The notes under the pieces were generated by a model. The model was not told the DNA's origin, did not search any database, and saw only the letters and a program-made list of their open reading frames with translations. Source: Macrolepiota albuminosa (lineage: Eukaryota > Basidiomycota > Agaricomycetes > Agaricales > Agaricaceae). Taken from it: a DNA stretch of 64,000 bases. The stretch covers positions 1,364,001 through 1,428,000 of the forward strand of contig JAMWFC010000090.1 of NCBI GenBank assembly GCA_027475525.1, given 5' to 3'. Within the stretch, counting starts at the first letter, position 1, and every line of letters begins with the position of its first letter. The translations under genes were made by a program, and so were the position numbers. This document shows positions 5,267 to 50,967 of the stretch, in pieces.

Positions 5267-5291
5267 ATGACTGGTTAAGTACACCTTTTTT

Positions 5292-10075: not shown

Positions 10076-10078
10076 TTT

Positions 10079-10092
10079 TGGAGCCTACCATG
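10079..10092 (+). promoter_or_regulatory. Putative primer-binding site of element A
   Basis: TGGAGCCTACCATG begins three bases after the LTR end, where a tRNA 3' end would anneal (complement ending ...GGCTCCA). The start codon of gag (10090) overlaps it. The tRNA species was not identified. Confidence 0.4.
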
Positions 10093-31639: not shown

Positions 31640-33480
31640 TGTATACCACACTGTCTCATCTTGGCAGGTATTTTCACCTAAAAAGAACTATTTTTATAAT
31701 CAGTAGTTATCAGATAAGGCCCTACATATTTGGGGATTAACTTTTGTGCAAGTCCCTTTGGGAAACTCATGTTTTCAGTAGAAATATACACCATATCGTT
31801 GACTTGGAATGGTGCCAGTTTTTGTTGGCGGTTGGCATCACATGTCTGCTTAACACAAGCAGCAATAATACAATTATGTGCTGCCATGATAGCCATGCGT
31901 AATCTTTGCGCAAAAACACAAACTCTGGGAAATTCTGATTGTGGAGCTGGACTCCAGATCATTGGTCTAGGCATCCTTCCTGTGTTCAAGAAAAAAGGTG
32001 AATAACCGGTAGTCTCCGACCTTGCAAAATTGATTGCAAACTCTATTGCTGGTAACTTAGATATCCAATCACACTGATTGGGGCCAATACATTGTCAGAT
32101 CATCTGTATGACTGTTCTATTAGCTCTCAGTCAAACCATCTGACTCTGGATGATAGGCTGATGACATCCATAACTCAGTTCCAATAAGAGAATGCAGATG
32201 TGACCAAAAAGTACTAGTAAAGTATGTATCTCGATCACTGACTATTGCTCTGAGTAACCCATGATACTTATAGACTTCCAAAAATACTAGTTCAGCCACA
32301 TTTCGTGCATTGTAATTAGTTCTGCTTGGTACTGTATGTCAGGGGACTCCTCATTTCTTCCTTTTCTCACTCCTTATCTCTTCACTCTCCTTCCATTCAT
32401 TCTCTTATTTCTTCTGACATTATTTCATTTCACTGTTTCTATTCTTTCAACACTATCTGTTAGTACTACTCTCAGCCCTTGAGATGCTCTGGTTCTTTAG
32501 CCACCATTCAGACAAGTGTGGGCCACTCAGCACCGCTTCCAGACCACTTATATAAGCCAGAGTTTGCCAGAGTTTGCCCCTTATTTGTACAAGTGTTTGT
32601 GTAGGCAATTTTCGAGTTTTTAAAGTTTTGTTGTACTGTACAGTTGTTTCCCATGCTTCAGAGGCCCCAGAAGCGTCCAACCTGGCATAGGGAATCCCTA
32701 GACTTGTTCTCTTTGGATCTCCCTCTGCCAGGTGAGTAGCTACCTTGATATTGTCAGTATATATTCTAATACACTTTGGATCTCCCTCTGCCAGCTGTGT
32801 GACTGAGCCACAGCCTCTAGAGGTCGCCCTTACACTGTATGTACCATTCCTGTCAATAGATCAATGATTACAGTAATTGAATCATAGGTTGCATCTTGAT
32901 CCTTTGATTCAGGCAATGGTCCAACAAAGTCTATGCCAATAACTTTCCAAGGCTGTGTAGGTAGTTTTAATGGGTTGAGCAATCCATATGGGGAATGGTT
33001 AGCTGGCTTACTGCACATGCAAGTAGTACATGTTTCACAGTATTTTCGAACATCCTTTTCTATGGTTTTCCACCAGACTGTCTCATGTAAGTATGTGTAA
33101 GTCTTTCTTGCTCCTAGATGAGCTAATATTGAGTAAGCCTCTGATATTACTATTTCCTGAATACTTTGGCTATTTACTATTATAGCTGGTATGCATAAAT
33201 ACCTTACTCATAGCTGTCTTTAAATAGATTATACCTTTGTTATATTCAAAGTTTTTGCAAGCTTTCAGATTGTCTATAATCTTCTTCAATAGCTGATCTT
33301 CGCTATACTTGTCTTTAATCACAGCTAATAAGTTGATTGGCTCTTTCCCTCCACTGAGCATTTCCATTATTGAAATCGGAGGTAAATCTTTAAATTGTTC
33401 TTGTAGAGCTTGTGCTCTAGCTTTTATAGCCTCATCTTTCTCAAGTTTGGCTTCATGTGGGTCTTTTCTGGCCCCTCTAG
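31640..33480 (-). pseudogene. Element C integrase, split by a solo LTR
   Basis: Minus text in order: linker KARALQEQFKDLPPISIMEM, HLGARKTYTYLHETVWW with KYCETCTTCMCSKPA (zinc domain), GIDFVGPLPES (first Asp), SITVIIDLLTGMVHTV, then after the solo LTR PSRTNYNARNVAELVFLEVY, IVSDRDTYFTSTFW (second Asp), HPESDGLTERANR (Glu), AIEFAINFARSETTGYSPFF and VPKY-like LIPKYVGPYLI. All three catalytic residues remain. One stop (near 32095) and a few others, plus the LTR insertion at 32337-32834, inactivate it. Confidence 0.85.
32337..32834 (+). repeat. Solo LTR, copy 1, inside element C integrase
   Basis: 498 bp, TGTCAGGGGACTCC...CGCCCTTACA, flanked by a 5-bp duplication CTGTA (32332-32336 and 32835-32839). 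Removing it plus one CTGTA restores the integrase frame ...GMVHTVPSRTNYN. It matches 47579-48077 at about 98%. The orientation sign is arbitrary. Confidence 0.9.
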
Positions 33481-33983
33481 CTGGTATTCTGATGGTCAGT
33501 TTTTCCCTTTCCGATACTGTTTCCCCATTCTCACCCTCCTTTTGTTTCTGAGGGCCCTGAAGGACAAATGTTTAGCCATCTGGGCTGCAAATTCTCTCAA
33601 AGTCTCAGGCCTTCCTGTTTCAGCTAGCAAGTCCTTATTCATGTCTTTATCTTTACTTATTCTGGCCAAAATCAGGTCTGTTGCTTCTTCTTGATTGCAA
33701 CTATCATTCTTAGTCAGGGCTTCACTCTTGCCCTCTATTCCAACAAGCACTAGCATAGAAATGAGATGCCTTTCCAGATAGTCATTGTCAATCATATCAT
33801 GGTATGTATATTCACTTCAAGACCTCACAGTTCCTGGCTCATCACTTGAATAAATTTATGATAAGGCATCAGACAAGATATTTTTGGTGCCTGGAAGTCT
33901 TGATGTGTTGGTGTCATCCATTTAGCTAACAAGTTGACCTTATTAGGGTACATCCTGCACCCCTGGTAGGATGGTATATGCTT
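33481..33983 (-). pseudogene. Element C RNase H end and RNase H-integrase linker
   Basis: Minus text LPGTKNILSDALS then IYSSDEPGTVRS and SEYTYHDMIDNDYLERHL is the end of RNase H (normally ADALSR) and the start of the linker. Frame 33795-33496 continues with charged helical text (EEATDLILARISKDKDMNKD). Stops have replaced expected Arg codons. Confidence 0.65.
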
Positions 33984-35526
33984 CTTGATGGCACTTTAGG
34001 GGGGTTTCTCTTGCTGACAGTAAGTACTCTAAGTATACCAACCATCTCAAATCTGAGATCAATGATCTGGCCTGGTCTAGAACTGCTGAGGTTGATAGGA
34101 AGGTCCCAGCAGTATAGAGGTCAGGAGGTTTCAGGAGAAGTTTGGAGATTATGAGGTCTTGAACTTCTTGACCAGATCAGAGTTCCATGAATATTTTAGA
34201 TGACCATTAGATTAGTTTGTTCTCGTGGAATATCTTGACCAGACCAGAATTTCATGAATATTTTGGATGACCGTTGAATTAGTTTATTTTTGTGGACTAT
34301 CAAATTCATTTGTTTTTATGGAATATCAGACATTTATCTGTTGAATTAGTTTGTTTTTATGGAAAATTAGTGTGTGATGCCAAGAAAAGAATAACATTTG
34401 TACATGAAACATTATAAAAAAACTCAGCTATGATCAGAAAGCTACAAGAAATGTTGACTTCAACTGAGAATGTCTGGGTCTATGTTATTGTCCTCTCATA
34501 TATACCAGTCCAACAGACCTCAGAATAGTTCACTAGCCTATGGCACATGTGATGAACTTGCATTGTATGCTCCACAGCTCTGGGGTGGTGGTGGTGGGCA
34601 CATGTTGTGGGAAAGCAAAATAGTACCAGGACAAAAAAGGTCAGACAAAATTAAAAAGGTAAGATAGAATTTGGCAAATACTTTCAACTTGAGCTAAACT
34701 TTGATCCACCAACTTCTGTTTTGCTTCCTCAAGTATGGGATGCCAGTGTCTCTACAACACCAAAGAAGAGAGTGTCAGAATAGACTTATTGCTGTGGCAG
34801 CAGCATGTTGGTTACTTCCTGGCATCTCAAGTTTTTGTATTTATTTTCTTTGTTTTACCTACTTATATTCTTCTCTAGGATGATCATGGTCAACTGTCCT
34901 ATATAGTTATTTAGCCACTATCCTCCCTTAGTGGGAGGGACTCCTTTTACTAGCCCTCAGTTCTTTTACCAAAGACTAAGAGTATGTTACTTTACCTCCT
35001 GCTTACTCTAGCCCATACTTACATTTGACCTGTAGCATTAAGACTTACTTTGTATTACAGGTCAAACAGAGTTCTTTTAAGACTGAGGCATTAAAACTTA
35101 CTTTGTATTACAGAGAGGAGGCTTGCAGCAAATGCTAAAAGCTGTAGAAGCTACTATAAGTGAGTCTTCTAGTCCAATAGTTTGTAACATATACTGAATT
35201 TATAAATATAGAAATAAGTCAGTCATTAGTACATGAAATCCAAAGTACAATAACAATAATCTCAGACTTATGAAATGTTCCTTTAAGGCCGTAGTTGGGG
35301 CTGCATATTGAGTACTTGGGTAGGGCTATTGAATATCTATGTTCATTGTCAGGGAGGAGGTTGATAAGTATGAAGGTATAAAGGTATAAAGGTATGGCGG
35401 TACAGAGGTATGGAGCTATGGAAGGTGCTATTTTGGTAAATAGAAGCATGACTATACAACCTCCTGATGTCTTAGAGTACTTACTATAAGCACAGATAAC
35501 CTCTCTAAAGTGCCATCAAGAAGCAC
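33984..35526. mobile_element. Probable 1.5-kb inverted-repeat element within element C
   Basis: The outer ends are inverted copies: GCTTCTTGATGGCACTTTAG at about 33988-34007 and its complement at about 35505-35524. The similarity extends inward for another 30-35 bp (AGTAAGTACTCTAAG on both sides). The interior is AT-rich and has two direct copies of a roughly 85-bp block (TTGACCAGA...TTCATGAATATTTT, near 34180 and 34245). There is no transposase text. It sits where RT thumb and most of RNase H of element C should be, so part of the host element was also lost. No clear target duplication. Confidence 0.4.
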
Positions 35527-36052
35527 GAAGTGTCCTGCCTTAGATGCCATCCTGATCCCCTTGTCATCAACAATACAGCCAAGAATTTTCATTTCCCTGC
35601 AAAGGAATAGAAGCTTACACTTACTTAGGTAAAGTTTTTCTCTTTTCAATATATCGAGTACAATTTTAATGTGTTTAACATGATCTTCCAATGAGTTGAA
35701 ATAGATTATTATATCATTTAAATATACATCTAGAAATCAGCCTAAGTAAGGTGCAAAAAGGTGGTTCATCAATGCCTGGTAAGTTGCCAGTGCATTACAA
35801 TCACCTTGCTGGACAACATGACTAACCATGTTTTTATCTGGGGTGGTAACTGTTATTTGAGGTACATTCTCAGGTTTAATCCTTATTTGCTCATAGGCAT
35901 CCTGACCATCAATAATAGACCTGTACTTTGCATTGACTACACACCTCAAGATGCCATCAATATCTGGCAACAGCAATGACATCTTGTGAGTATTTGCATT
36001 TCTTGCATATAGATCTACTATGCTCTGGAGTCAGACAGGGTCTCCTGGCTTT
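35527..36052 (-). pseudogene. Element C reverse transcriptase, C-terminal part
   Basis: Minus text from 36042: LQSIVDLYARNANTHKMSLL, RSIIDGQDAYEQIRIKPENV, QQGDCNALATYQALMNHLFA, then the palm motif VYLNDIIIYFNSLEDH, where the second Asp-pair is Asn-Asp instead of Asp-Asp, and KREKLYLSKCKLLFLCREMK. TGA and TAG stops occur near 36025 and 35737. The upstream half of the same RT is at 44283-44640, separated by the transposon at 36053-44272. Confidence 0.85.
36043..36052. repeat. Left 10-bp target duplication (TCCTGGCTTT)
   Basis: Identical to 44273-44282. Joining the flanks at one copy restores the RT reading FLQKPGDPV...SIVDLYARN on the minus strand, which is the family's expected order. Confidence 0.75.
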
Positions 36053-36205
36053 CCTGGCAGGGTAGGGCATCACAACGGTACGTGTCATACGTTGTACGGG
36101 AGCCCGCTTTGTGCCGTACCATACGTGTCCAGCGGAGTCCGCTACACTGGAGCGGAGCAGTCCCCACAGTGCCGTAGAATACAGAGCCGCAGACGTGTCA
36201 CAATG

Positions 36206-36360
36206 TGCTGTATGACACGGTCCAGTGGATCGATAAAAGGCGGGCACACACATGCGCACGCAGGCCCGGCAGATGCCAGCTGTGCTGTATGACACGGTCC
36301 AGTGGATCGATAAAAGGCGGGCACACACATGCGCACGCAGGCCCGGCAGATGCCAGCGGA
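36206..36360. repeat. 77-bp tandem duplication in the left arm
   Basis: Two copies of the unit running from GTGCTGTATGACACGGTCCA to CAGGCCCGGCAGATGCCAG. The right arm has one copy, at 44044-44127. Confidence 0.85.
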
Positions 36361-36766
36361 CACTAGCGGACGTCAATGTGCATCAGCGGCCGCCGGCGGG
36401 CATCAGCACACGAGTGAAAACCTCCTCCATTGGCGGACTTCATGGCATGAATAAACCCTCCTCGAGGTTCCCCATTTCCCTCCCCTCTCCATTCCCCCCC
36501 GCAATAACTCGAGGCTGCGCGTCTCCCCTTCCATCCTTTTCCCACCCCCGACGCCAGCGTACGTCCACGAAAGGGCCCTGAAAATCTACGCAGGCCTACG
36601 CAAGCCACCAGCGGACATGGACGCAGACGTACGTCGACGGACTCAAACCTACGCGGGCCCTCCCAGGCCTGCGCAGGACACCAGCGGACATCCACAGAGG
36701 CCTACGCAGGTCCACGGGGTCTGGTTGGACCAAGAAAAAAGGTAACGTCGACTTGCCCGTCGTATG

Positions 36767-36844
36767 CCTGTGGGGGGGAATCGAACCCCCGGCCTTGGGA
36801 AAGCCTCCAGCAACGGAACGCACATTTAACCGTTGCACCACAGG
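36767..36844 (-). tRNA. tRNA-like sequence in the left arm (class unclear)
   Basis: On the minus strand CCTGTGG pairs perfectly with CCACAGG (7 bp), and GGGGGTTCGATTCCCCC forms a T arm with consensus box B GGTTCGATTCC; the 5' part TGGTGCAACGG fits box A. The middle does not fold into a regular anticodon arm. GGCTTTCCCAAGGCC could be a long variable arm as in tRNA-Ser or tRNA-Leu. No anticodon is assigned; it may be a pseudo-tRNA. The exact mirror is at 43564-43641. Confidence 0.5.
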
Positions 36845-37067
36845 TCCGTTACTAACGGATAGATTCAAAGGTCGGATAACACAATGAACGGACGCCCACC
36901 TATGTTTCTGCAGGTTCCCGTATGGATTTTTTGAGGTGGAAGGGGGGTGGCATACCTCCCAAAAGAGTTTTCGTGGCCTGAAAGGGGCGTTGGCATCAGC
37001 AGCCATCAGCTGGCCATCAGCTGGCCATCAGCTGGCATCCGTCGGAGTTCGCCGGCAGCCGTCGTGA

Positions 37068-37178
37068 CCCGCTGGCATCCGTTGGCATCCGTCGGCATCC
37101 GTCGTGCATCCGTCGTGCATCCGTCGGCATCCGCCGGATATCCGCTGGTATTCGTTGGAATCCACGGGAATCCGTCGG
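37068..37178. repeat. GGCATCCGT(C/T) short tandem repeat, left arm
   Basis: About ten imperfect 9-12-bp units (GGCATCCGTT, GGCATCCGTC, GTGCATCCGTC, GATATCCGCT) in a row. The same array in mirror orientation is at about 43240-43350. These fit a clustered subterminal binding site for a transposase, as known for several DNA transposon classes; that role is inferred. Confidence 0.7.
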
Positions 37179-37579
37179 CAACCCCCAGCATCGTCCGGCA
37201 TCAGGGCGGGAGAGAAGGAAACGGGGTGCGTGGGTGTCCGCCGCATGGGGTGGCGTCTCGGAGAGCGTGGGGGGTGGCGGAAGAGGGATGGGGGTGGGGA
37301 GAAAGAGGGGGAAGGGGGAAGGGGAGGAGCGTGGGTGTCCGCTGGTACCCCAGCGGACGTCAGGTCAGGGGGGAGGAGGGAAGCGGGGTGCATGTGGTGG
37401 ACGGGGGTGGCGTGTGAGGTAGTGTGGGGAGTGGAGAGGATGGCACTGGGGAGAAAGAGGGGGAAGGGCGGAAGAGGGTGCGTGAGTGTCCGCTGTCCGC
37501 TGGCATGCCAGCGGACGGTAGCAGACGGTAGCTGACGTCGGCATGTGAGCCAGCTGATGTCAGCGGTGCAACCAGTCCC

Positions 37580-37655
37580 AGTGGTGCAGTGGAATATTCA
37601 TTTATTGATATTCAATATTGTGTACAGTGGTGGGTTCTACTCCTACTTCACCTTA
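37580..37655 (+). ncRNA. tRNA-like module 1 (box A and box B), left arm
   Basis: GTGGTGCAGTGG (box A-like), an AT-rich stem GGAATATTCATT...ATTCAATATTG, then GGTGGGTTCTACTCC (box B-like with one change). The acceptor ends do not pair, so it is not a normal tRNA. Mirror copy at 42776-42830. Confidence 0.45.
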
Positions 37656-37744
37656 ACAGGGACTAATGCTGTGTTTTTATATGGGTGCATTTTTGCTCTA
37701 CATATACATCGCACTGACCTGGAGTATGCGCCTGTGGTAGTGGA

Positions 37745-37998
37745 TCTGACCAAAACTCTAGGAATTACTGAAGCGGGATAGGATGGAGGAGTTGACACAT
37801 GAGATCATTCCAGCGCTCATGACAAGTGACGATACACCAGGGCTGACTACTTTTTTTTTACAAAGATCAGCACAGAGGTAGTCAGCCACAGTGCATTATC
37901 AACTTGTCATGAGCACTGAAATGAACACATGCGCGAACTCGTCCATCTTATGCCACTGCAGAAATCTCTGGAGTTTTCAACGGATCAAATTCATGACG
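37745..37998. repeat. Fold-back (MITE-like) segment, left arm
   Basis: Two arms of about 110 bp are inverted copies of each other, from GATCTGACCAAAACTCTAGG on one side to CTGGAGTTTTCAACGGATC on the other. They meet at GGGCTGACTAC and GTAGTCAGCC around a T-rich centre. Similar units lie at 41838-41975 and 42420-42670. This part differs between the two big arms far more than the rest. Confidence 0.6.
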
Positions 37999-38035
37999 CT
38001 AGCGGACGTCAGCGGCCTGCTGCTATTATATAATG

Positions 38036-38112
38036 TGAACTAGTGGGAGTCGAACCCACTTCTTGTGCACAATATGAAACATCAATTGATGAATATTCCA
38101 TTGTACCACAGG
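38036..38112 (-). ncRNA. tRNA-like module 2, left arm
   Basis: Minus strand: box A TGGTACAATGG, stem AATATTCATCAATTGATG, then CACAAGAAGTGGGTTCGACT and CCCAC completing a perfect T arm with consensus box B. The acceptor is not paired. Mirror copy at 42297-42372 (+). Confidence 0.5.
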
Positions 38113-38294
38113 CGCTTGCTACAAGTCAGGACGGTGTTCATGTAGTGCACAAACGGACCCATACAGAATTTGAACGGATAGAGATTTTACTGCAACTGGT
38201 GCATATGTATTGAATTGACAATATTAGACTGATATTTATTTACACCATAGAAGTATACAGGAAAGAGGAAAACCATGCTGGTTCATCAAGGATC

Positions 38295-38697
38295 AAGGTA
38301 TCTTGGATATGGCACTCTAATTCTGATGCAGAAAATGAATCTGCAACTATTTCTGAATGTGAGTCCTCTTGTTAACATTTCCGTTATCATTACATCCGTT
38401 TGTGAACATATCTCTTCAGTTAATCGTGTTCATTATCTACGTGCTAGAGCACAACGCAGCAGATGGACAGAGGAATGTCAGCTTGTCACGAGTGAAATGG
38501 AGTGGACAGTTCGGTATTTCTTCAACCAGGCAGATATTTGGTCGAAGCGTGGTATGTCAGTGAAGAAAAGAGGTCTCCAGTCATATGCCCACAAAAAGGT
38601 GGCCATGTGGCAAGAATTGGCCTCGATGGCAATTGATAAATTTAGGCGGGTGCTTCCTGATTTTATTCCCCCCCAAACTGCAAGAGATCCGCTGTGA
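38295..38697 (+). pseudogene. KDZ transposase C-terminal remnant
   Basis: Exon text about 38298-38358 (VSWIWHSNSDAENESATISE), an intron 38359-38419 (GTGAGT...TTCAG), then 38420-38697 (RVHYLRARAQRSRWTEECQL and YFFNQADIWSKRG). KDZ (Kyakuja-Dileera-Zisupton) transposases of basidiomycetes end with such an SWIW...W.K.RAR..RW.EE..LL..EM block; this is from memory of the family. Everything upstream, including the catalytic core, is missing, because the exon begins just inside the inverted-repeat boundary. Confidence 0.6.
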
Positions 38698-38699
38698 AA

Positions 38700-38790
38700 A
38701 TGGTGGATGCAGAGACGGATTGATGTGACGGATGCAGAGACGGATTGATGTGACGGATGCAGCTTGCTGCCATCAGCGGATGATCGGAAC
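38700..38790 (+). repeat. GACGGAT(T/G) direct repeats after the KDZ remnant
   Basis: Two 25-bp direct copies beginning CGGATGCAGAGACGGATTGA at 38706 and 38731, then further CGGATG words. They lie between the two genes and may be regulatory or binding repeats. Confidence 0.6.
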
Positions 38791-38895
38791 GGATTTGTGA
38801 CAGTCACGTGCAATGGAATTGTTGAAAATCACTTTTGTTTACAAGGCACAAAAATCTGATACATAGCAGTATCCGCTTCTACAAGCAAGAGTGCA

Positions 38896-40987
38896 ATGGC
38901 GTCTACCTCTGTACCACACAATGTCATGTCCCAAGCTACTGTACTAGAAAATTTGCAAGAGGTTGTTGACTACATCGAGTCACGCCTCATTGCAGCACTT
39001 TCCATATTTGGCAATCTTGCGCCAAGTCTTGAAGCGGAAGAGGCATGGATTATCCAGCATCTAGACAAGGAGTTGGTAAGATGACTTCAAAATGTGTAAA
39101 TATATTAGGATCTGACTGTGTGCCATAGAACTTTGTATTGTCATATCTGGGGGCTGCATCACTGAATAATGTGGTCTGCAATGTCCCAGACATTATCAAA
39201 AGCATGAGCCGATTTTTCCCTCTCCAAAATCAGCAAACTTTGCCCACAGAGATCCTGGAGTTTGTTGATGGCCGTCAAGGTCTTATTAGAAATCTGTATG
39301 GCTGTGATTGGTGGAACCACATTGGCCGAGAGGATGTTCAGGTCTTAAGCAATGAAACGCTGGAGCATTGCCTTCTCGTACATCAGCAAGGCTTCCACTC
39401 TCTTGAAAGCTTCTTGGCATGCAACCGCCGGCCGCCCATGACATTGCCATCCGATGGATTGGTGTCCGTCCCAGCACCAGATGATTTGCTCCGTGTGTTT
39501 GCAGGTAGCGGATCCACCAGGGGCCACCAGCAGACGCTTCTAGCCCTAGACAAGTGGCGGTCGCTGGATAGGACGGAACATGTGCCAACGGCCAACGATA
39601 TGATCCGCCTGTTTGCTGGCAGCAAGTCCGTTGCTGCTTCCGTTGTCAGTTCCGTTGCCAGGTCCGTGGATCCTGCTTGGACGGGCCAATTGACAGGCAT
39701 CGAGTCCCATACCAACAGTATTGATGGTGAGCAGCCTGATCCTCAAGACTGCCTCTCCATGGCGCATCCTACCACTCTCCCTGATGTCGACTCTCCCCAA
39801 TGGCCATCCTTGACACATATCGAACCCTCGAACGCACAACATCCATTCCACCACCTCTACAGTCAGAGTAAACCTGGACTGGTGTATGGCCCTACAATGG
39901 AAAACTCTCGCGTTGTGGTTCAACCGGCATCCCAACTTCCTTCCGCCCCAGCAGCTCATGTCCGTGGGACATTCAGGGAGCTGGGGGAAACTGACGATGA
40001 CCAGGTGGATATCCCTAATCCATCCATTAGTGACCCTGACTTAGAGGGTATCCCTCCTTTGTTCATTCCTGCGGAAGAGGAGACGGAAGACGAATCTTTG
40101 CCGCCTTTGTTCATTCCTGCGGAAGAGGAGACGGAAGACGAATCTTTGCCGCCTTTGTTCATTCCTGCGCAAGAGGAGATGGAAGACGAATCTTTGCCGC
40201 CTTTGTTCATTCCTGCGCAAGAGGAGATGGAAGAGGATTCTTTGCCTCCTTTGTTCATTCCTGCGGAAGAGGAGACCAAAGACAATGATTTGCCCCCTTT
40301 GTTCATTCCTGCGGAAGAGGAGATGGACGTGGAGACCGTGGTGGCCGGTGACGGCGGACAAACGGAAGTCCGGAGCGGCGGACGTATGGCGACCGAGAAC
40401 GAAGAAAACCTTCCGCCGCTATTTCTTGTGACGGCAGAAGAGACGGATGGAGGCATGGCAGCCGATGACGAACAAAATCTTCCACCGCTTTTTGATGTAA
40501 CGGCTCTTCAAATCCCATCTTCCCCCTTCCAACAATCTCCTTCTCCAACCCTACCTACTGGTAACAATGTCCAGGAGTGGGAGGAATATGAGACACGTAT
40601 GACTCGACGTGAGGATCAGAGAAGAATTAACGAATTGTATCAACAACGTGAGTATAATTTGGCACTGGTAATCATAGTTAATTTATTTCAACAGAACAAG
40701 AATTTCGCGCTAGAGCAAAACATGGTCGATGTAGGCCCATTGGCCCTTTCAATCAAGCTGGTCGTACTGATGATGTGTCTGTTGATATGTCAGAGTCACC
40801 CTCACCATCTTCATCGTCAGGCCTGATAGCAAACTATGAAGACATCACACTTCCCAGACCTCAAGGGCCATATACACCGGACGACTTTGCATTTTTGACA
40901 GCAGACTACCTGCTTGATGAGGATTTGTTCTATTCAGACACATTACATGAATCTAATGAAGAGGAGGAATACACATCGGACGAGTAA
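38896..40987 (+). CDS. Transposon second gene: repeat-containing protein of unknown function
   Basis: Exons 38896-39075, 39129-40647 and 40695-40987 join in frame to 663 codons. The introns are 39076-39128 (GTAAGA...CATAG) and 40648-40694 (GTGAGT...AACAG). The N-terminal third is helical and Cys-poor (EEAWIIQHLDKEL; WWNHIGREDVQVL). Two related blocks, APDDLLRVFAGSGSTRG and TANDMIRLFAGSKSVAA, look like an internal duplication. Residues about 370-465 are six 16-residue repeats of the type PPLFIPAEEETEDESL, plus two degenerate ones. A charged helix (EEYETRMTRREDQRRINELY) and an acidic C-terminus follow. No transposase or nuclease motif. Open and spliceable, so possibly functional; a role in the element's transposition or silencing escape is only a guess. 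Confidence 0.65.
40053..40340 (+). repeat. 48-bp coding minisatellite, six units
   Basis: Units of 48 bp (start CCTCCTTTGTTCATTCCTGC) encode PPLFIPAEEE-type repeats. Units 1-2 are identical and 3-4 nearly so, showing recent expansion. Repeats 7 and 8 (NLPPLFLVTAEET, NLPPLFDVTALQ) lie further on and are separated. Confidence 0.85.
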
Positions 40988-41810
40988 TTTAATCCTTAGT
41001 TACTATAATTCTTGGCTTTTCCGTTGGTTATTTTTCGTCAAGATTAACCGTCCCGTTGTGCCGCTGACGAATCCATTATAAATCCGTTTGATCCGTTACC
41101 TCCAGTTGTGCACTAGAAGGAACATAAACTGACAATATTCTGCTAGACCACAGGACATTCTGTGGATTATACATAAATATCACTCTAGTATTGTGTACTA
41201 GGCTACAGCACTTTACTACAGACATTTCAATTAGTTTGGACAGGACTCAGGTCCACTAAGATTAACCGTCCCATTGTTTTGTTCCGTTATGCCACTCTCA
41301 TGAACGCAAAAAACAACACACTCTTCAACGATTACACAAGGGGGACTCGAACCCTCGAATTGGGCAGTAGAAAGAATATAGACGTAAATAACAATTAGTA
41401 AAACAAAGTTATGTCATGTCTAATGATGTGCATGAGTGGGATTCGAACCCGGCTCTTGTGCACAATATTAAATATCAATGTATCAATATTCCATTCGACC
41501 ACAGGTCCTTACCAAAAATTAGTACAGTTTACATCTAGTGCAGAAATGCAGCAGTATAAAAAGACACCATTATACGTCATTATGGTGGACTAGGGAAGTC
41601 TGGACTAGGGGAGTCGAACCTGCCACTCCACACAATACTGAAAATTGAGTGGGTCAGATCAACTACCATAGGCCACTGACAGGCAGGTTTGACCCCCTTC
41701 TAAGTAAGCACCTGTGGTACAATGGAATATTGATAAATTGATATTTCATATTGTGCACAAGAGGTGGGTTCGACTCCTGCTAGTGCATATTAGAGCAGCA
41801 GGCCGCTGAT
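40988..41810. other. Central non-coding region with several tRNA-like sequences
   Basis: No protein text. Box B-like segments occur at about 41338-41355 (minus), 41430-41507 (minus, box A TGGTCGAATGG), 41600-41680 (minus, GGTTCGACTCC) and 41709-41787 (plus, TGGTACAATGG and GGTTCGACTCC). They share the AATATTGTGCACAAG middle and all have broken acceptor stems. Confidence 0.5.
41709..41787 (+). ncRNA. tRNA-like module 6, centre of the transposon
   Basis: CCTGTGGTACAATGG, then ATTGATAAATTGATATTTCA and ATTGTGCACAAGAGG, then GGGTTCGACTCCTGC. Box A is perfect, box B is perfect, and the T stem has one mismatch. It is followed by a fold-back unit (41838-41975), as in the arms. Confidence 0.45.
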
Positions 41811-41837
41811 GTCCGCTAGCATCATTAATGTGATCCG

Positions 41838-41975
41838 TTTAAAACTCCAGAGATTTCTGCAGTGGCATGGGTTGATCGTCTTTGCGCATGTGGTCATTCC
41901 AGATCTCGTGACTATGCGCAACTTCGGCCAACCCATACCCGCTTCAGTAATTTCTAGCGTTTTTAACGGATCAAC
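41838..41975. repeat. Fold-back (MITE-like) segment, centre
   Basis: Arms from GATCCGTTTAAAACTCCAGA to TTTCTAGCGTTTTTAACGGA, related to 37745-37998, with the centre GACTATGCGCAACTTCGGCC. Shorter than the arm copies. Confidence 0.5.
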
Positions 41976-42296
41976 TTGATGATGCTAGCGAGTGATGAAC
42001 GGATATTTTATTAGGGCTTACAGGCCCTATTAAAATATTTGTCACTAGCAGGAGTCCAACCCGCCCCTCAATATTCCATTGTCACTATTAGACCCCATTA
42101 AGGTGGAGTAGAGGGAGTAGAACCCACCGCTGTACTTTTCCTCTTTCCTGTATACTTCTATGGTGTAAATAAATATCAGTCTAATATTGTCAATTCAATA
42201 CATATGCACCAGTTGCAGTAAAATCTCTATCCGTTCAAATTCTGTATGGGTCCGTTTGTGCACTACATGAACACCGTCCTGACTTGTAGCAAGCGC

Positions 42297-42372
42297 CTGT
42301 GGTACAATGGAATATTCATCAATTGATGTTTCATATTGTGCACAAGAAGTGGGTTCGACTCCCACTAGTTCA
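42297..42372 (+). ncRNA. tRNA-like module 2, right arm
   Basis: Mirror copy of 38036-38112. TGGTACAATGG and GTGGGTTCGACTCCCAC are intact. Confidence 0.5.
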
Positions 42373-43563
42373 CATTATATAATAGCAGCAGGCCGCTGAC
42401 GTCCGCTAGCGTCATGAATTTGATCCGTTGAAAACTCCAGAGATTTCTGCAGCGGGATAAGATGGACGAGTCGACGCATGTGGTCATTCCAGTGCTCATG
42501 ACCAGTTGATATTACACTGTGGCGGGCTACCTTTGTGCTGGCCTTTGTAAAAAAGGTAGTCAGCCCTAGTGTATCGTCACTTGTCATGTGAACTGGAACG
42601 ATCTCATGTGTCAACTCCCCCATCCTTTCTCGTTTCAGTAATTCCTAGAGTTTTGGTCAGATCCACTACCACAGGCGCATACTCCAGGTCAGTGCGATGT
42701 ATATGTAGAGCAAAAATGCACCCATATAAAAACACAGCATTAGTCCCTGTTAAGGTGAAGTAGGAGTAGAACCCACCACTGTACACAATATTGAATATCA
42801 ATAAATGAATATTCCACTGCACCACTGGGACTGGTTGCACCGCTGACATCAGCTGGCTCACATGCCGACGTCAGCTACCGTCTGCTACCGTCCGCTGGCA
42901 TGCCAGCGGACAGCGGACACTCACGCACCCTCTTCCGCCCTTCCCCCTCTTTCTCCCCAGTGCCATCCTCTCCACTCCCCACACTACCTCACACGCCACC
43001 CCCGTCCACCACATGCACCCCGCTTCCCTCCTCCCCCCTGACCTGACGTCCGCTGGGGTACCAGCGGACACCCACGCTCCTCCCCTTCCCCCTTCCCCCT
43101 CTTTCTCCCCACCCCCATCCCTCTTCCGCCACCCCCCACGCTCTCCGAGACGCCACCCCATGCGGCGGACACCCACGCACCCCGTTTCCTTCTCTCCCGC
43201 CCTGATGCCGGACGATGCCGGGGGTTGCCGACGGATTCCCGTGGATTCCAACGGATACCAGCGGATATCCGGCGGATGCCGACGGATGCACGACGGATGC
43301 ACGACGGATGCCGACGGATGCCAACGGATGCCAGCGGGTCACGACGGCTGCCGGCGAACTCCGACGGATGCCAGCTGATGGCCAGCTGATGGCCAGCTGA
43401 TGGCTGCTGATGCCAACGCCCCTTTCAGGCCACGAAAACTCTTTTGGGAGGTATGCCACCCCCCTTCCACCTCAAAAAATCCATACGGGAACCTGCAGAA
43501 ACATAGGTGGGCGTCCGTTCATTGTGTTATCCGACCTTTGAATCTATCCGTTAGTAACGGACC

Positions 43564-43641
43564 TGTGGTGCAACGGTTAAATGTGCGTTCCGTTGCTGGA
43601 GGCTTTCCCAAGGCCGGGGGTTCGATTCCCCCCCACAGGCA
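43564..43641 (+). tRNA. tRNA-like sequence in the right arm (class unclear)
   Basis: Identical mirror of 36767-36844: acceptor CCTGTGG/CCACAGG, T arm GGGGGTTCGATTCCCCC, irregular anticodon region. Confidence 0.5.
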
Positions 43642-44282
43642 TACGACGGGCAAGTCGACGTTACCTTTTTTCTTGGTCCAACCAGACCCCGTGGACCTGC
43701 GTAGGCCTCTGTGGATGTCCGCTGGTGTCCTGCGCAGGCCTGGGAGGGCCCGCGTAGGTTTGAGTCCGTCGACGTACGTCTGCGTCCATGTCCGCTGGTG
43801 GCTTGCGTAGGCCTGCGTAGATTTTCAGGGCCCTTTCGTGGATGTACGCTGGCGTCGGGGGTGGGAAAAGGATGGGAGGGGAGACGCGCAGCCTCGAGTT
43901 ATTGCGGGGAGGAATGGAGAGGGGAGGGAAATGGGGAACCTCGAGGAGGGTTTATTCATGCCATGAAGTCCGCCAATGGAGGAGGTTTTCACTCGTGTGC
44001 TGATGCCCGCCGGCGGCCGCTGATGCACATTGACGTCCGCTAGTGTCCGCTGGCATCCGCCGGGCCTGCGTGCGCATGTGTGTGCCCGCCTTTTATCGAT
44101 CCACTGGACCGTGTCATACAGCACATTGTGACACGTCCGCGGCTCTGTATTCTACGGCACTGTGGGGACTGCTCCGCTCCAGTGTAGCGGACTCCGCTGG
44201 ACACGTATGGTACGGCACAAAGCGGGCTCCCGTACAACGTATGACACGTACCGTTGTGATGTCTCTATGTGTTCCTGGCTTT

Positions 44283-44700
44283 TGCAAAAACATTATCAGA
44301 ACTGCATTATCATTTGCAGTAATTTTCTATTGACCTAACTTGATGTACGCTGCTCTTTTTTCATCCCATTGGGGTCTCAATGCTTCAGGGCATTTAGATG
44401 GGCACCAAGGGTACACCTTACTCTCATCAATAATAGGAATTTCATGGTTTATGACACGAAGGGGAGACAATGGTGTGTCTTCTGCAGACTTACAGATTGG
44501 ATGCACATACTCACATAGTTCTTGCCAAATACATTTTAGTTTCTCTTTGACTTATTCCATAGCATGCGACAATAACTTCAATACTCCCACACCCTCATTC
44601 ATTGGTTGTGGAGCAACACTTCCAATTACTACACATGGATGTTAGATGCTGATGATTAGAGATTATTGTAAGTGCCAAGTTTGATGACCAAGAAGGTCGA
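44283..44700 (-). pseudogene. Element C reverse transcriptase, N-terminal part
   Basis: Minus text VVIGSVAPQPMNEGVGVLKL, then LKCIWQELCEYVHPIC, HEIPIIDESKVYPWCPSKCP, EALRPQWDEKRAAYIKLG and ANDNAVLIMFLQKPG. This is the protease-RT linker and first RT block of the Ty3 polymerase whose remainder is at 35527-36052. Two or three stops are present. Gag and protease of element C are not seen; the copia LTR begins at 44710. Confidence 0.8.
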
Positions 44701-44709
44701 TAGATAAAA

Positions 44710-44936
44710 TGTTATTCTCAATATTATTAACTACCTTCACCCCTAGACATATTATTAACTACCTTCACTCCTAGACATGAATATATATATATATTTACCT
44801 ACAACAGATACACCCTCAGTCAAATATACAAAGACTGAGGGTGAGTAACCACATACCTTTACTATACCGTTACCTTACTCATAACCTACCTAGTGCACGT
44901 ACTTACTTGTGTATTATCTAGGCTCTAAAATTAACA
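44710..44936 (+). repeat. 5' LTR of element D
   Basis: 227 bp, TGTTATTCTC...AAAATTAACA. Contains an ATATATATATATA promoter-like run (44781-44793), the hairpin CCCTCAGTC...GACTGAGGG (44813-44841) and a direct duplication of ATTATTAACTACCTTCAC near its start. The other LTR is outside the window. Confidence 0.65.
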
Positions 44937-44937
44937 G

Positions 44938-44952
44938 ATTATGGGAGAGTGC
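44938..44952 (+). promoter_or_regulatory. Copia primer-binding site (initiator-Met half-tRNA type)
   Basis: ATTATGGGAGAGTGC starts two bases after the LTR. It resembles the Drosophila copia site GGTTATGGGCCCAG, which pairs with the anticodon region of cleaved initiator tRNA-Met. The match is partial. Confidence 0.45.
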
Positions 44953-45138
44953 TGCTCCGTACACTAAAGTACTGTGTTTTTTTTTCTTTGGACCACATGC
45001 TCAATATTAGTAGACAGACTGCCCTGACTTTATTTTCTGATTACCAAGCACATTATATCATATATTGCTTTACTCTAGATCTGAGAACACACATTGCCCT
45101 TAGTGATCCCTATCTTATCTCTACTCTTGATCTTCACT

Positions 45139-46350
45139 ATGGCTCCAACTGTTGAAGCTACTGAGAGTCCAGAAAACCCTGCTACAGACATTATGGATGC
45201 TGAGGCACAGGAAATGTGACGGGTTGATGGGTACTATATCTGTGATCTTGCAGATCAAGATTTCAATTCACTATTTTGGAGAATTACTAATGAAAGATGA
45301 TGGCAAATGAACACTCTGGTTGAAGTTCATAAAACTTAAATTCACTATGTCTGGCCTGTATAAATATGTTTTCAATCCTCCTGATCTTCCCCACAAGTCC
45401 TTTGAGCTGAGAGCACACCGTAATTAGCAGTCAAACAATTGTCTTGCCCACTTTTTTTGATGTTGGAACTATCTGAATCAGAACGTAACCTGGCTGATGA
45501 GTCTGCTAATGCTAAGGCTTTGTGGGACTACCTACAGGCAAGGCACAGTGGAGCAGGACTGGTCCAACAAGTTTGCCTTCTGCAGGAGACACTCACCATG
45601 AAGTCTTCCCCAACTGAGCTGCTCACTAAGACAATCAACCAAATCTATGAGAAGATTAACTGGGCATTTGATGTAGGAGAGGTGACCAAAGACCTCTTAC
45701 AATCTATTGCCGCACTGTCCTCCTTGTCTGATAACTCACTATATGTGAGTGCATGATTGATCATTTCGAGAGATTTGGCAGTGGTGACTGTGATGGCACT
45801 TTATGGCCTGGACAAGATTCACTGATTCCTGGAAAACAAGCAGATCCTATATTCTGCTGACAAAGGCCTCCAGGATAGTCATACTGCTGTAATAGCAGCC
45901 CAATCAATGGCTTGGAGAGATGACCTAATCTGTAATGTGTGTAGGACAAAAGAACGCATGAACTACACAGGACACACCAAACCGTGGTGCATCCTGGAAG
46001 CAGGTGGCATGGCTGGGAAGATACTGGATGAGGCTAGGACTACTCATGTGGCATATTACAAAGCTAAAAAAGACAATCATGACAAAAAGAAGACCACCAC
46101 AAAGCTTACCTTTACGCCAGCTGGCAGCTCAGCATTTACAGTAGAAGAGGATGCAAACACCCTTGCTGCATACCTTGCCAGTCAGACAAGTAAGACATCA
46201 GATGGGATACTGAAGGCAAAGTTTGCGGGATTGGCAGCAAATGGGACCTTCGACCTCCTCACAGATACCAAGAGCCTTAAAATTGATGCATGGCTTGTGC
46301 TGGAGAAGAAGTCAATGGCAGGTGTTGACTGGGAAAGCCACACATTATAA
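45139..46350 (+). pseudogene. gag: Element D gag with zinc knuckle
   Basis: From ATG 45139 (MAPTVEATESPENPATDIM), with TGA at about 45217 and frame changes. The capsid text SANAKALWDYLQARHSGAGL and QQVCLLQETLTMKSSP (45490-45610) is typical of copia (UBN2) gag. A degenerate zinc knuckle CNVCRTKERMNYTGHTKPWC is at 45937-45996 and a basic Ser/Thr tail reaches 46350. Confidence 0.75.
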
Positions 46351-47155
46351 ATCACAGCTGACACTGCACTGTCCAGCACCACCACGATGCTCAACACATA
46401 TCTCTTTTATCTAGACTCAGATGCAACCATGCATATCTCCTCAAATGCCACCAACTTTACCTCTTTGAAGCCTATTGCAAACAGGTCAATTTGAGGCATA
46501 GGCAGATCTACAATTTTTGCTACTGCCATTGGAAAAATCAACCTTTGCCTCACTGACAGTTCTCATTTAGTACTTGATGACACTCTCCTTGTTTTCAAGG
46601 CTACAGTCAGACTCCTTTCAGTCAGCTCTATGGCAAAAAGGAATGGTATATTCACCATGTTCAGTGATACAAGCACAATACTGTTTGAAAGAACAGTGAA
46701 AGAACCAGTAGTGAGCAGAATCCTGATTCCTATGAAAAATTTGTATGTGATTAACCTCTATGCTGAATCTGCTTTTAGCATTCACTCATCACCTAATATT
46801 GTTACATGGCACCGACGTTTGGGCCATGCCAACTACCAAACTATCATGGAGATGGTGAAAAGAGGCATGATTGAAGGTATGCTATGCACCTTAACTACAA
46901 AACCACTGAAGTGTAATGAATATATCACTGGAAAACAGACTAGAATACCTGTCCCAAATGTTAGAGAAGAAGGTGTTGGATACAGAGCAACACACAAACT
47001 TGGGATAGTGTGGGTGTATCTGACAGGGAAGCAGGATATTACATCAAGGACTGGAAATAATTACATCATGAATATTGTCAACAATTATACAAATAAACTA
47101 TGGTACATACTTCTGAAATTAAAGAGCGACGCTGTAGTACTTGGCTGCAAGTAGT
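46351..47155 (+). pseudogene. Element D protease, GAG-pre-integrase and integrase start
   Basis: YLDSDATMHISSNATNFTSL has the copia protease site with Gly changed (DSD for DSG). WHRRLGHANYQTIMEMVKRG (46807-46866) is the H-x(3-5)-H pre-integrase zinc motif. The integrase begins at VWVYLTGKQDI, where the first catalytic Asp (normally D-L/V-x-G) is replaced by Tyr. The frame ends at 47154 and the next integrase text is at about 48540. Confidence 0.75.
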
Positions 47156-48535
47156 ACTAATAGTTCTGGGGCTTTCTTGAAGTCTTAGAAAGTGACCTCT
47201 GATCCACACTAGTGCTGGATAATAAGGTTGATGTATTGGGTGCTTCACAGAATATCAAATACTCTGCAAGGCAGAAGAAGGTTCTCAATAAACTCCAGCC
47301 TAAGTAGTTCACTCCCTGGGAACCACCAAGCCTTTGTCTACCAATAGACTTCCAATAAAAGGTGTTCAATAAACTCTAGCCTAGGTGATTCACTCTCTGG
47401 GAACCACTGAGCCTTTGCTTATCAAATGCCTGGTTATTCTCTACTCTACTTGGACTATTTATACTGATTTTCCAGTGCACAGACCACCAGATCACAGACC
47501 TCCCAGCATTTCTGATTTAATTTGTTGTTCCATTTTCTATTTTGGTGATGCATGTTTTAGTGCCACCATTCTATTCATTGTCAGGGGACTCCTCATTTCT
47601 TACTTTTCTCACTCCTTATCTCTTCACTCTCCTTCCATTCATTCTCTTATTTCTTCTGACATTATTTCATTTCACTGTTTCTATTCTTTCAATACTATCT
47701 GTTAGTACTACTCTCAGCCCTTGAGATGCTCTGGTTCTTTAGCCACCATTCAGACAAGTGTGGGCCCACTCAGCACCGCTTCCAGACTGCTTATATAAGC
47801 CAGAGTTTGCCAGAGTTTGCCCCTTATTTGTACAAGTGTTTGTGTAGGCAATTTTCGAGTTTTTAAGGTTTTGTTGTACTGTACAGTTGTTTCCCACACT
47901 TCAGAGGCCCCAGAAGCGTCCAACCTGGCATAGAGAATCCCTAGACTTGTTCTCTTTGGATCTCCCTCTGCCAGGTGAGTAGCTACCTTGATATTGTCAG
48001 TATATATTCTAATACACTTTGGATCTCCCTCTGCCAGCTGTGTGACTGAGCCACAGCCTCTAGAGGTCGCCCTTACATTCATCTCTTCCTTCCTCTATTC
48101 AATGCATGTTTTAGTGCCACCATTCCATTTATCCCTTCCTTCCTCCATTCAATGCATGTGCCACCATTCCATTCATCTCTTTTGACATCCCTCCATGCTT
48201 CTTTCCCTTTTCCCTTTTAGTCATATCAAATTGGGCATTGTCAGATCAGATCTTGATCTAGATCATCACAATTTGATCTCATTTCATCACCTCTGCCAGC
48301 TCCCATGCTTCTCCTCTCCATAACAGTGGTTGGACTATTGTTGAGTTGATAGCTTGAGCTGGTCCCTGCCCTTTGTTCTGTACTGTCTGTGTATTTATTG
48401 GGGTGTTTTTGGAGATATAATTTGTTGAGACTGCTATCAGGAGGCTTACAGTTTTCAGCCTTATGATTAAATGTTTATTTTGACTTCTGATGCATGTTGT
48501 GTCCCTGACTGCTGGTACATCATTGTATCAATGCA
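47156..48535. other. Repeat-filled insertion in element D integrase
   Basis: No protein text except out-of-frame scraps. Contains two direct copies of a roughly 75-bp block (CTCAATAAACTCCAGCC at 47280 and TTCAATAAACTCTAGCC at 47366), the solo LTR 47579-48077, and copies of CATGTTTTAGTGCCACCATT on both sides of it (47551 and 48106). Whether it is one inserted element or several cannot be told. Confidence 0.4.
47579..48077 (+). repeat. Solo LTR, copy 2
   Basis: 499 bp, TGTCAGGGGACTCC...CGCCCTTACA, flanked by TTCAT (47574-47578 and 48078-48082). Nearly identical to 32337-32834. Contains the direct repeat CTTTGGATCTCCCTCTGCCA twice near its end and GCCAGAGTTT twice in the middle. Confidence 0.9.
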
Positions 48536-48751
48536 TTCAAAGAACTTCAAGCATGGGTCCTGGCTTGACAAGTTGAAACAGGGCTAAAAGTAGGCATACT
48601 TTGCTCAGGAAATGATTCAGAGATCATAGCAAAAAAGAATGAAGAGTGGTACAAGTCTCAGGGAATAACAACACAACAAGGAGTTATATACACATCAGTG
48701 CACTTGGGATGCATGGAACAGATGCATAGGACACTCATGGGGAAGAGTATA
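48536..48751 (+). pseudogene. Element D integrase, middle part
   Basis: The text KKNEEWYKSQGITTQQGVIY and TSVHLGCMEQMHRTLMGKS matches the copia integrase block around the catalytic Glu (normally GRVERMHRT; here C-M-E-Q). It is interrupted by the Tc1/mariner element and continues at 50371. Confidence 0.65.
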
Positions 48752-50368
48752 CACTGGCTCAAAAAACTGCTCCAATGTTTGGCCCTTTTGGAAAGATTCA
48801 CATGGTGTGCAACAATTACATAAGTGAAAAATCGTAGAAAATCACATGACATACAACTACATCTTGGCTTTATAATGACATATAAATCATGTGATTTGGA
48901 CAAGACCTCGCTGATTAATAAATCAAACAAGGTATTCAATCATTAGGGCAGTTTTTTGACCCACTCTAATTTACTCTAATTTTCATATCTAGTACTTGGT
49001 ATGGCCTCCATTTGCCTTTATAACTGCCTTGATCCTTCTAGGCATGCTCTCTATGAGGCTTTGGCATACTTCTGATGGTATTTTATTCTACTCCTTGACC
49101 ACTCTATCACACAACTCATGCACTTCTTTAGGAAGTACCTCATACTCCAAAGGTTTGTGCTTGATATAAACCCAGAGATGTTCAATGAGATTGAGGTTAG
49201 GGGATTGGGCAGGCCAGGATATTACAATGATGTTGTTATCAGAAAACCAGGTTGTTGCCTGTTTGGAGGTGTATTTTGGATCATTGTCCTGCTAAAAATA
49301 TTGTCCTTCCTCCTCCATTTCCAACTTCTCAAAGCTTTCCACCACTCCCTCATCCAAAATCTCACAATACTGTGCAGCATCCATCTTCTCCTGAACTTCT
49401 ATGAGCTTTCCAACTCCATTCCAATCCATGCAGCCTCATACCATTAAATTGTTTCCTCCTCCATGCTTGACAGTTGGTGTAGTAGTGTGGTCAGATAGTG
49501 GTTCTCCTGGAATTTTCTATACATATACCTTCCCATCTGATCCACTCTGATTAATCTTTGTCTCATCACTCCACAAAACCCTTTTCCAATCCTCCACTGT
49601 CTAGTTTTTATGATACTGAGCAAATTTGAGCCGGTTTGCACAATGAGCAATCTTGAGCATAGGAACTTTCTTCTTTGTTGCTGAACAAAAGCCTGCCTTC
49701 TTCAATGCATTTCTGACTGTCTGAGGATTGACAGGATTAGAGATGACATAATTAATGAACTATGTAGCTTGAACAGCATTATCCAGCTTTCCAGTAGTAA
49801 TTTGACGAATAATAGACTGTTTGTTATGTGCTGTAAGCTTGGAAGGATGACCTCCAGGATAATTCTCTTTGTTGCTCTCCAGCTCTTTGCTGATTCTCCT
49901 CACAGTGCCCTTTTTCAGGCCAGTTTTTGCTTGGATTTGACACTGAGAATACCCCTCATTAAGAAGAAAAGCAACAGAAGAGCAATTGGCAGCAGAAACA
50001 GATTGCATGATTGTGGTAGAGTATCAAAAAGGTGATTGATTGAAGTTGAACATGTCAAATTAGTACAAACAAGGTCACATGACATTGTTTATACTTTCCA
50101 CAAAGTGTTTCCATCTTCTACTGCTGAAAAGTATTGAGAAAATATGAAAATTAAAGTGAGTCAAAAAACTGCCCCAATAATTGAATATTTTGTTCAGTTT
50201 ATTAATCAGCGAGTTCTTATCCAAATCACATGACTTATACGTCATTATGAAGCCAGGATGCAGTTGTATGTCATGTGAATTTCTACAATTTTTTGCTTAT
50301 GTAATTGTTGCACACCATGTGAATTCTTCCAAAAAGGCCAAACATTGGGGCAGTTTTTTGAGCCAGTG
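48752..50368 (-). mobile_element. Tc1/mariner element with about 230-bp inverted repeats
   Basis: Ends CACTGGCTCAAAAAACTGC and its complement GCAGTTTTTTGAGCCAGTG, flanked by TA on both sides (48750-48751 and 50369-50370). The inverted repeats run 48752-48990 and 50140-50368. Each also carries an inner inverted copy of the terminal motif (GGGCAGTTTTTTGACYCAC). Length 1,617 bp. It sits in the copia integrase frame. Confidence 0.88.
48989..50008 (-). pseudogene. Tc1/mariner DD34E-type transposase with in-frame stops
   Basis: One continuous 340-codon minus frame from ATG 50008 to TAG 48989. N-terminal helix-turn-helix text (SQCQIQAKTGLKKGTVRRIS), VLWSDETKIN (first Asp), FxQDNDPKYTSKQAT (second Asp) and SPNLNLIEHLWVYIK (Glu). 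Stops replace residues at about six places (QAT*F, KN*TVEDW, YV*KIPG, MV*GC, YF*QDN, KE*NK), mostly where Trp or Gln is expected. There are no frameshifts. Confidence 0.88.
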
Positions 50369-50370
50369 TA

Positions 50371-50967
50371 GCTATGAGACCATATGCAAAGTGCCTGCCA
50401 TTTCTCTGGGATGAATTCTATCTGACAGCAACTCACCTACATGGAAAGACAAGAATATTGGCTGTAAACAACATCACACCAGATGAGCTATGATATAACA
50501 AGAAACCAAACTATTCTTATATTTGTGAGACAGATTGCTGAGTATTTATCCTTATATTGAGCAAGCACAACCCAAAGATCTATGAGAGAGTGATCAAATG
50601 TACACTGATAGGCTATGATGCCAAATTAAAGGCATACAGATGCTACGATAAGGCAACAAGACAGGTATACAGCACATATCATGTCAAGTTTGTTGAGCAT
50701 CATGATGATTCTCCTGCAACTAGCATGACAATGCCATCTTTGGTTCCAGATGATGCTGCAACCGATCTACATATACCTACATCAACCTTGGGCCAAGAGG
50801 ATATCCCAACTGTCAATACCATTACAAGAAGAGTAAGGGATCAACTATATATAATTCCTGACAATGAGGAAGATGATATACCAAACAGGAACATTGAAGG
50901 GGGACCTAACAATGCCCCATTAAAGATGCCTGCAGACCCAATTTCCCAAGATCTTCCTGAAGTTTAG
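50371..50967 (+). pseudogene. Element D integrase C-terminal part
   Basis: AMRPYAKCLPFLWDEFYLTA and ITPDELWYNKKPNYSYI, then LSKHNPKIYERVIKCTLIGY and TRQVYSTYHVKFVEHHD, the standard copia integrase end, followed by an acidic linker to TAG at 50965. One frame change near 50555. Confidence 0.8.

Follow-up and report, generated by a model that had tools for sequence, protein, structure and literature searches.

The DNA considered here, called the window throughout, comprises 64,000 nucleotides of contig JAMWFC010000090.1 of Macrolepiota albuminosa (assembly GCA_027475525.1), and its positions 36058-44271 are occupied by an 8,214-bp copy of a transposon whose true ends were fixed by comparison among copies. 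A preliminary description, made from the letters of the window, had recognized two collinear inverted arms, a 3.9-kb center, and unlike outer ends. All of these are borne out, and the arms (36068-38272 and 42136-44261) are 96–99% complementary in three blocks, far beyond chance. The element terminates in two unlike tips, A, which starts CAGGGTAGGGC, and B, which starts CACATAGAGAC; the shared arm opens with the last C of each. The near-identical ∼2.13-kb arms thus begin 10 bp inside the tips, and the unpaired ends measure 10 and 10 bp instead of the 15 and 11 bases first reported.

The element is a member of a large family. In the genome searched (100 Mb, 129 contigs), 207 A tips and 212 B tips were found, a few of them doubled by the assembly scars discussed below, and a 36-bp stretch immediately interior to the tips has 214 occurrences, 116 forward and 98 reverse (≤3 mismatches for each). 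Copies with the same ends, which the preliminary description had proposed to look for, are therefore plentiful, and the concern that the arms are found only here is excluded. Tip pairing was assessed with the first 100 listed A tips and the first 100 listed B tips. These form 52 convergent pairs within 30 kb, three of which share a partner through doubled tips, leaving 49 distinct pairs; 48 of these unite an A tip with a B tip and none unites two A tips. Pair sizes range from 249 bp to 29.9 kb, with 22 of the 49 at 15.5–18.5 kb. Four A-B pairs are only 249–410 bp apart, too short to accommodate arms.

Both flanks were read for 18 tip pairs, the window copy included, and 17 of them carry exact 7-bp target duplications, two of the 17 (loci at 2.88 and 3.24 Mb on contig C114) counting as a single duplicated locus. 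The latter copies (G000:C114:2883955-2900613 and 3235437-3252095) are separated by 351 kb, have the same length, the same duplication, and the same orientation of the core, and are a segmental or assembly duplication. For the window copy, the duplication is TTCCTGG. The 10-bp duplication TCCTGGCTTT originally proposed can be ruled out, as the tips known from other copies call for a duplication of 7 bp and paralogs of the target align to the 7-bp join at equal lengths; the 10-bp overlap arose by chance because the repetitive target already carried TCCTGGCTTTCCTGGCTTTT. A 500-bp query, in which the flanks were joined after removal of one 7-bp copy, returned 21 matches, two being the window's own flanks. 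The match at C78:1570884-1571381 spans 498 bases at 86% identity and equal length, and this paralogous sequence is the empty site at the DNA level. Ten more places match 472–488 bases over the join (68–74%, equal lengths), and the remaining matches are shorter or weaker. The host sequence at the insertion is a decayed repeat: the reverse transcriptase frame said to read through once the element is removed is not open, the longest open stretch in six frames over the 7-bp join being 54 amino acids. We assign the element to the transposons with high confidence.

Full-length relatives and the internal deletion

Ten other copies were fetched from the genome, nine of them complete, with lengths of 15,557–18,349 bp. 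The exons of the spliced gene in one of these, L039, match the CxC2 (PF18803, 4.2e-15) and KDZ (PF18758, 1.4e-40) domains. The link to KDZ elements, which the preliminary description had drawn from a C-terminal transposase remnant, now extends to full-length relatives with matching tips and arms that carry CxC2 and KDZ (scanned in L039), and the full-length copy with a transposase that it had suggested seeking is found in L039. A frameshift at the start of one transposase exon is common to some copies and absent from others. Among 3,877 candidates, 120 are related to the transposase at E ≤ 1e-10; the best match is from Blastosporella zonata (50%), followed among the named ones by Lyophyllum and other Agaricomycetes, a distribution that points to a mushroom-forming fungus as the likely host. 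The domain scan covered nine open frames of L039, among which no hAT or P transposase domain and no Tet_JBP was found; a weak genome search for Tet_JBP gave none, with the control genomes silent too.

Comparison with L039 accounts for the smaller size of the window copy, which keeps L039 bases up to 2,157 and from 10815 on and has lost an intervening 8.66-kb segment (Table 1). What remains of the core includes an accessory open frame for which one remote relative was found, in Termitomyces (34% identity, 3.5e-29), among the 7,998 best candidates scored.

Table 1. Coordinates of the transposon copy and its features in the window.
Feature	Position	Strand	Details
Left 7-bp target duplication (TTCCTGG)	36051..36057		Copy comparison, flank reading
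A tip, unpaired outer 10 bp (CAGGGTAGGG, then arm-shared C)	36058..36067	+	Copy comparison; 207 genome tips
A-side arm	36068..38272	+	2,205 bp in the assembly; 2,128 bp once the 77-bp scar is discounted
Two exact 77-bp copies	36204..36357		Window A arm; read as assembly join scar
B box, tRNA-like module 1, A arm	36777..36787	-	A box 53 bp upstream
B box, second tRNA-like module, A arm	38046..38056	-	A box 52 bp upstream
Deletion junction	38277..38278		L039 bases 2158-10814 (8,657 bp) gone, catalytic exons included
KDZ transposase gene, C-terminal remnant	38278..38697	+	Same reading as L039 5836-6288 minus; domain exons in deleted part
Accessory open frame, 562 amino acids	39138..40826	+	Start from open reading frame list; 48-bp repeats at 40056-40327
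Four exact B boxes (41343 -, 41439 -, 41610 -, 41767 +)	41343..41777		Core beside B arm
B-side arm	42136..44261	-	2,126 bp
B box, tRNA-like module 1, B arm	43619..43629	+	Then T6
B tip, unpaired outer 10 bp (CACATAGAGA read inward, then arm-shared C)	44262..44271	-	Copy comparison; 212 genome tips
Right 7-bp target duplication (TTCCTGG)	44272..44278		Copy comparison, flank reading

Core orientation relative to the tips

When the copies are oriented with the A tip on the left, their cores divide into two sets, with matches between the sets confined to opposite strands: a standard set (the window copy, L039, L041, L049, L055, and L057) and an inverted set (L043, L047, L051, and L053; four of the ten compared). 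L039 and L053 match on opposite strands from base 11 to base 16770, and thus everything except the tips is inverted between them. A comparison on the plus strand had given the impression of two unrelated cores on common arms, which was ruled out once the minus strand showed the inversion. L045, whose B end is incomplete and which is not one of the ten compared, has the standard arrangement at its A end. The presence of the core in both orientations argues for exchange between the arms, and the matching target duplications around flipped copies argue that this exchange takes place within one copy. Orientation was also scored from coordinates for 40 of 182 candidate transposase matches, 35 of which have a listed tip within reach. 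The A tip is upstream of the gene in 25 of the 35 and the B tip in 10 (11 vs 6 where both tips are present, n = 17), with duplicated loci on C114, and perhaps also on C25, among those counted.

A tree of ten cores, the window copy left out, requires three orientation changes when all sites are used, and grouping the flipped copies as one clade is disfavored (approximately unbiased test, p-AU 0.035), suggesting that flipping may have happened repeatedly. The arms themselves carry a mid-arm haplotype, X or Y, defined on 23 sites; several arms without the mid-arm segment, or that could not be placed, stand outside this typing. Among arms typable for mid-arm haplotype, tip, and gene side, seven of the eight possible combinations occur. 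An initial arm tree, in which the arms appeared to travel with the gene side, was discarded when its marker columns proved to lie in the core beyond the arm. The stretch bearing these haplotypes includes in the window an imperfect palindrome (37807-37925) that could form a recombination-prone hairpin; a weak match to MIR161 on both strands at this position was rejected as a product of the palindrome. Taken together, we consider with moderate confidence that the core flips between the tips.

A competing explanation, which we judge somewhat unlikely, is that the flips are assembly errors, wrong-way joins made through the 2.1-kb arms, and that all real copies have the A tip upstream of the gene, the commoner state in the coordinate counts. 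The assembly gives cause for such a concern. A scan for tandem duplications with periods of 25–200 found 48 exact duplications of period 77 in the ten fetched copies, or 97 when 38 smaller, partly overlapping loci are added, and several loci contain 100-N gaps. The recurrence of one exact period at many different positions rules out a biological origin; these duplications, seen for example in the window copy, L051, and L057, probably stem from k-mer overlaps left unmerged where contigs were joined, and are a general artifact of the assembly. The other periods detected (25, 48, and 78) are found at matching positions across several copies and seem genuine. One 77-bp scar lies in the A arm of the window copy, which is why that arm seemed longer than its partner (2,205 vs 2,126 bp): the preliminary estimate of ∼2.2 kb placed both arms properly but included 77 bp too many on the left. 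The tips and target duplications, being situated on unique flanks, are little affected by the scars, whereas the path through the arms is affected. An earlier worry that the inverted arms are themselves an assembly artifact is thus unfounded with regard to their existence and justified with regard to the path through scarred ones, and the scars caution any reading of repeat structure from this assembly.

We consequently considered arms that are free of scars and gaps from tip to core, of which there are 12 in eight elements. Eight linkages are standard (the window copy at B, L039 and L041 at A and B, and L045, L049, and L055 at A) and four are flipped (L047 and L053, each at A and B); the A side of the window copy is not typable for gene side, owing to its deletion. 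L053 is free of scars throughout, and so are the arms of L047, the A arm of which is without ∼1.1 kb that includes the mid-arm segment. Both elements are flipped at both ends, counter to what assembly errors would produce. L043 and L051, in contrast, are scarred in both arms. Because of the scars elsewhere, only the flips of L047 and L053 rest on scar-free arms. Within the scar-free arms, tip and gene side show all four combinations, as do mid-arm haplotype and gene side; tip and mid-arm haplotype show three, and the fourth (B with X) occurs in scarred arms only.

Internally deleted copies, such as that in the window, are typical of gap repair and favor an alternative in which the arms arose, or stay alike, through copying of one end onto the other during repair of the gap left by transposition instead of through reciprocal exchange, with a change of orientation as a rare by-product. 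This process has been put forward for Galileo elements, where it explains the extension of their repeats (PMC3573991). It also anticipates conversion, and the mid-arm haplotypes of L051 (Y in both arms) and L055 (X in both arms) are as expected from it. One-way copying, however, cannot invert a core between unlike tips unless accompanied by an inversion or a simultaneous exchange of tips, and we regard this account as rather unlikely.

tRNA-like modules, CpG decay, and surroundings

The tRNA-like modules and dense CGGA-type motifs pointed out in the preliminary description are both present in excess. At ≤1 mismatch, there are 14 B boxes in the window element and 20 in L039, 12 of them exact; 50 shuffles of L039 averaged 0.8, with a maximum of 3. 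An A box lies 50–53 bp upstream of 11 of the 20 in L039. Module 1 folds into a closed acceptor-like stem and a T arm (−36.4 kcal/mol, z −3.24), with none of 200 shuffles folding as well, and is followed by T6; three other modules have fold z values of −2.1 to −2.7. The genome contains 299 occurrences of the first 25 bases of module 1 (≤2 mismatches). L039 contains 245 CGGA motifs (14.6 per kb), compared with 4.1 per kb in the remainder of the window and up to 8.5 per kb in individual 4-kb stretches of that remainder; these motifs may be transposase sites.

The abundance of B boxes, their spacing from A boxes, and the fold of module 1 raise the prospect that the arms are kept for a function and not by exchange, the modules binding TFIIIC or driving polymerase III transcription and thereby shielding the element from silencing. 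We consider such a function unlikely, as none of the modules is called as a tRNA gene at normal ARAGORN or Rfam thresholds (the 30 candidates that L039 yields at a lowered ARAGORN threshold are too numerous to be meaningful) and the A-B pairs of 249–410 bp have no space for arms. The pattern of nucleotide changes also speaks against shielding. Relative to the majority in each column, 461 of 551 C-to-T changes in the core (both strands, ten cores) fall in CpG, which contributes 1,070 of the 5,689 core C positions. This decay of CpG to TpG/CpA fits cytosine methylation of the copies and suggests that they were methylated regardless of their modules.

CpG is strongly depleted at 32000-36000 and 44000-52000 of the window (observed/expected 0.08–0.30 per 4 kb), and element copies have observed/expected values of 0.6–0.9; old methylated repeats thus appear to surround a younger insertion. 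Farther away, at 4677-5570 on the plus strand, the window holds three intron-bearing tRNA-Ala(CGC) genes (Rfam tRNA, 47–53 bits; ARAGORN with introns), the last two inside a ∼304-bp tandem repeat.

Relation to Kyakuja and implications

The preliminary description could fit the element to no class that it could name. Kyakuja elements are described as making 7-bp duplications, ending in CA..TG, and lacking terminal inverted repeats; for Zisupton and Dileera the duplications are given as 8 bp (PMC12730594). The 7-bp duplications and the 5′-CA..TG-3′ termini (A tip CAGGG..., B tip CACAT..., each read inward) now point to Kyakuja, as does the KDZ transposase with CxC2 in an Agaricomycete; the giant arms do fall outside the Kyakuja description, since only the outer 10 bp of the ends are unpaired and 2.13-kb inverted arms lie directly inside. 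The lack of such repeats may define Kyakuja or may hold for the described families alone. The element is probably a Kyakuja-type KDZ transposon and, because published Kyakuja elements are without inverted repeats in that account, a structural variant of the type. It resembles Kyakuja-1_LB and Kyakuja-2_LB of Laccaria bicolor in its duplications, termini, transposase, and Agaricomycete distribution (PMC12730594), and differs from the Kyakuja elements described there in its 2.1-kb arms, two core orientations, and tRNA-like modules; a TET/JBP gene, which among Kyakuja is confined to TET+ families, was not found here in what was a weak search. As described for intact KDZ transposons of Pleurotus ostreatus, CxC2 precedes KDZ (PMC7641404). 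The KDZ1-3 elements of Cryptococcus share the KDZ transposase, large size (about 9–11 kb), and inverted repeats, but are reported to have CxC1 instead of CxC2, with terminal inverted repeats of 241 bp and 8-bp duplications in KDZ1, and of 139 and 169 bp with 4–8-bp duplications in KDZ2 and KDZ3 (PMC12810828), which makes duplication length alone an imperfect guide. Although that variation, the 7-bp duplications of hAT7 (PMC12730594), and the long terminal repeats and 7-bp duplications typical of Galileo (PMC3573991) leave some room for membership of a different branch or superfamily, be it Zisupton, Dileera, hAT7, or a Galileo-like P element, such an assignment is very improbable given the 8-bp duplications of Zisupton and Dileera, the match to the Pfam KDZ domain, and the lack of hAT or P domains in the frames scanned.

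We propose, with a probability of about 0.75, that the window holds an internally deleted copy of a ∼17-kb, likely Kyakuja-type KDZ transposon that moved in trans and whose arms recombine to flip the core. The KDZ transposase of full-length relatives would act on one A tip and one B tip, presumably by cut-and-paste, and would need the asymmetry between them; the window copy would likely have been mobilized in trans by such an enzyme. The 2.1-kb arms of a single copy likely undergo homologous exchange, by which the core would flip between tips that stay in place. Several observations weigh against this proposal. One of the 18 tip pairs, a 29.9-kb pair on C114, is without a matching duplication, and one of the 49 distinct pairs joins two B tips (G000:C122:2144461-2151345, 6,885 bp), which may reflect tip conversion, rearrangement, or misassembly. 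Flipped and standard copies are unequal in number (10 vs 25 of 35), and when CpG sites are masked the core tree needs two changes and the test no longer rejects one common origin for the flipped copies (p-AU 0.159). The path through the arms is doubtful in the many copies with 77-bp scars or N gaps, published Kyakuja elements are described without terminal inverted repeats, and no transposition or excision was seen.

The mechanism put forward for the flip has precedents, inversion in a bacterial insertion sequence and exchange between long repeats in Galileo. The interior of ISWpi1 of Wolbachia is reported to invert through recombination between its terminal inverted repeats (PMC3004938), although these are 23 bp long and the end asymmetry is lost, whereas here both A and B tips are kept. 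Galileo of Drosophila also has long, internally repetitive inverted repeats, exchange between them, deletion derivatives, and 7-bp duplications, but encodes a P-type transposase, and no conserved pair of unlike tips is reported in the account available (PMC3573991). In the open-licence PMC papers searched, no KDZ element was found to combine such a flip with a conserved pair of unlike tips. Nothing closer than the systems cited came up either for KDZ elements whose inverted repeats are long or for DNA transposons that contain tRNA-like modules.

A more far-reaching version of the flipping model is that the element is an invertible cassette, in which the arms serve as a recombination switch for the transposase core, the unlike 10-bp tips remain fixed, and the tRNA-like, TFIIIC-type modules in and next to the arms assist in organizing its chromatin or in the pairing of the arms. 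This is conceivable, though doubtful; if true, tip identity would be uncoupled from gene orientation. In the literature searched, no account was found of how a transposase recognizes Kyakuja ends. The pairing of A with B on near-identical ends, along with the A-B pairs of 249–410 bp, which are a likely minimal substrate, makes end recognition directly testable. If flipping holds, the family would provide a natural system in which to measure how the inverted repeats of a eukaryotic transposon recombine with each other.

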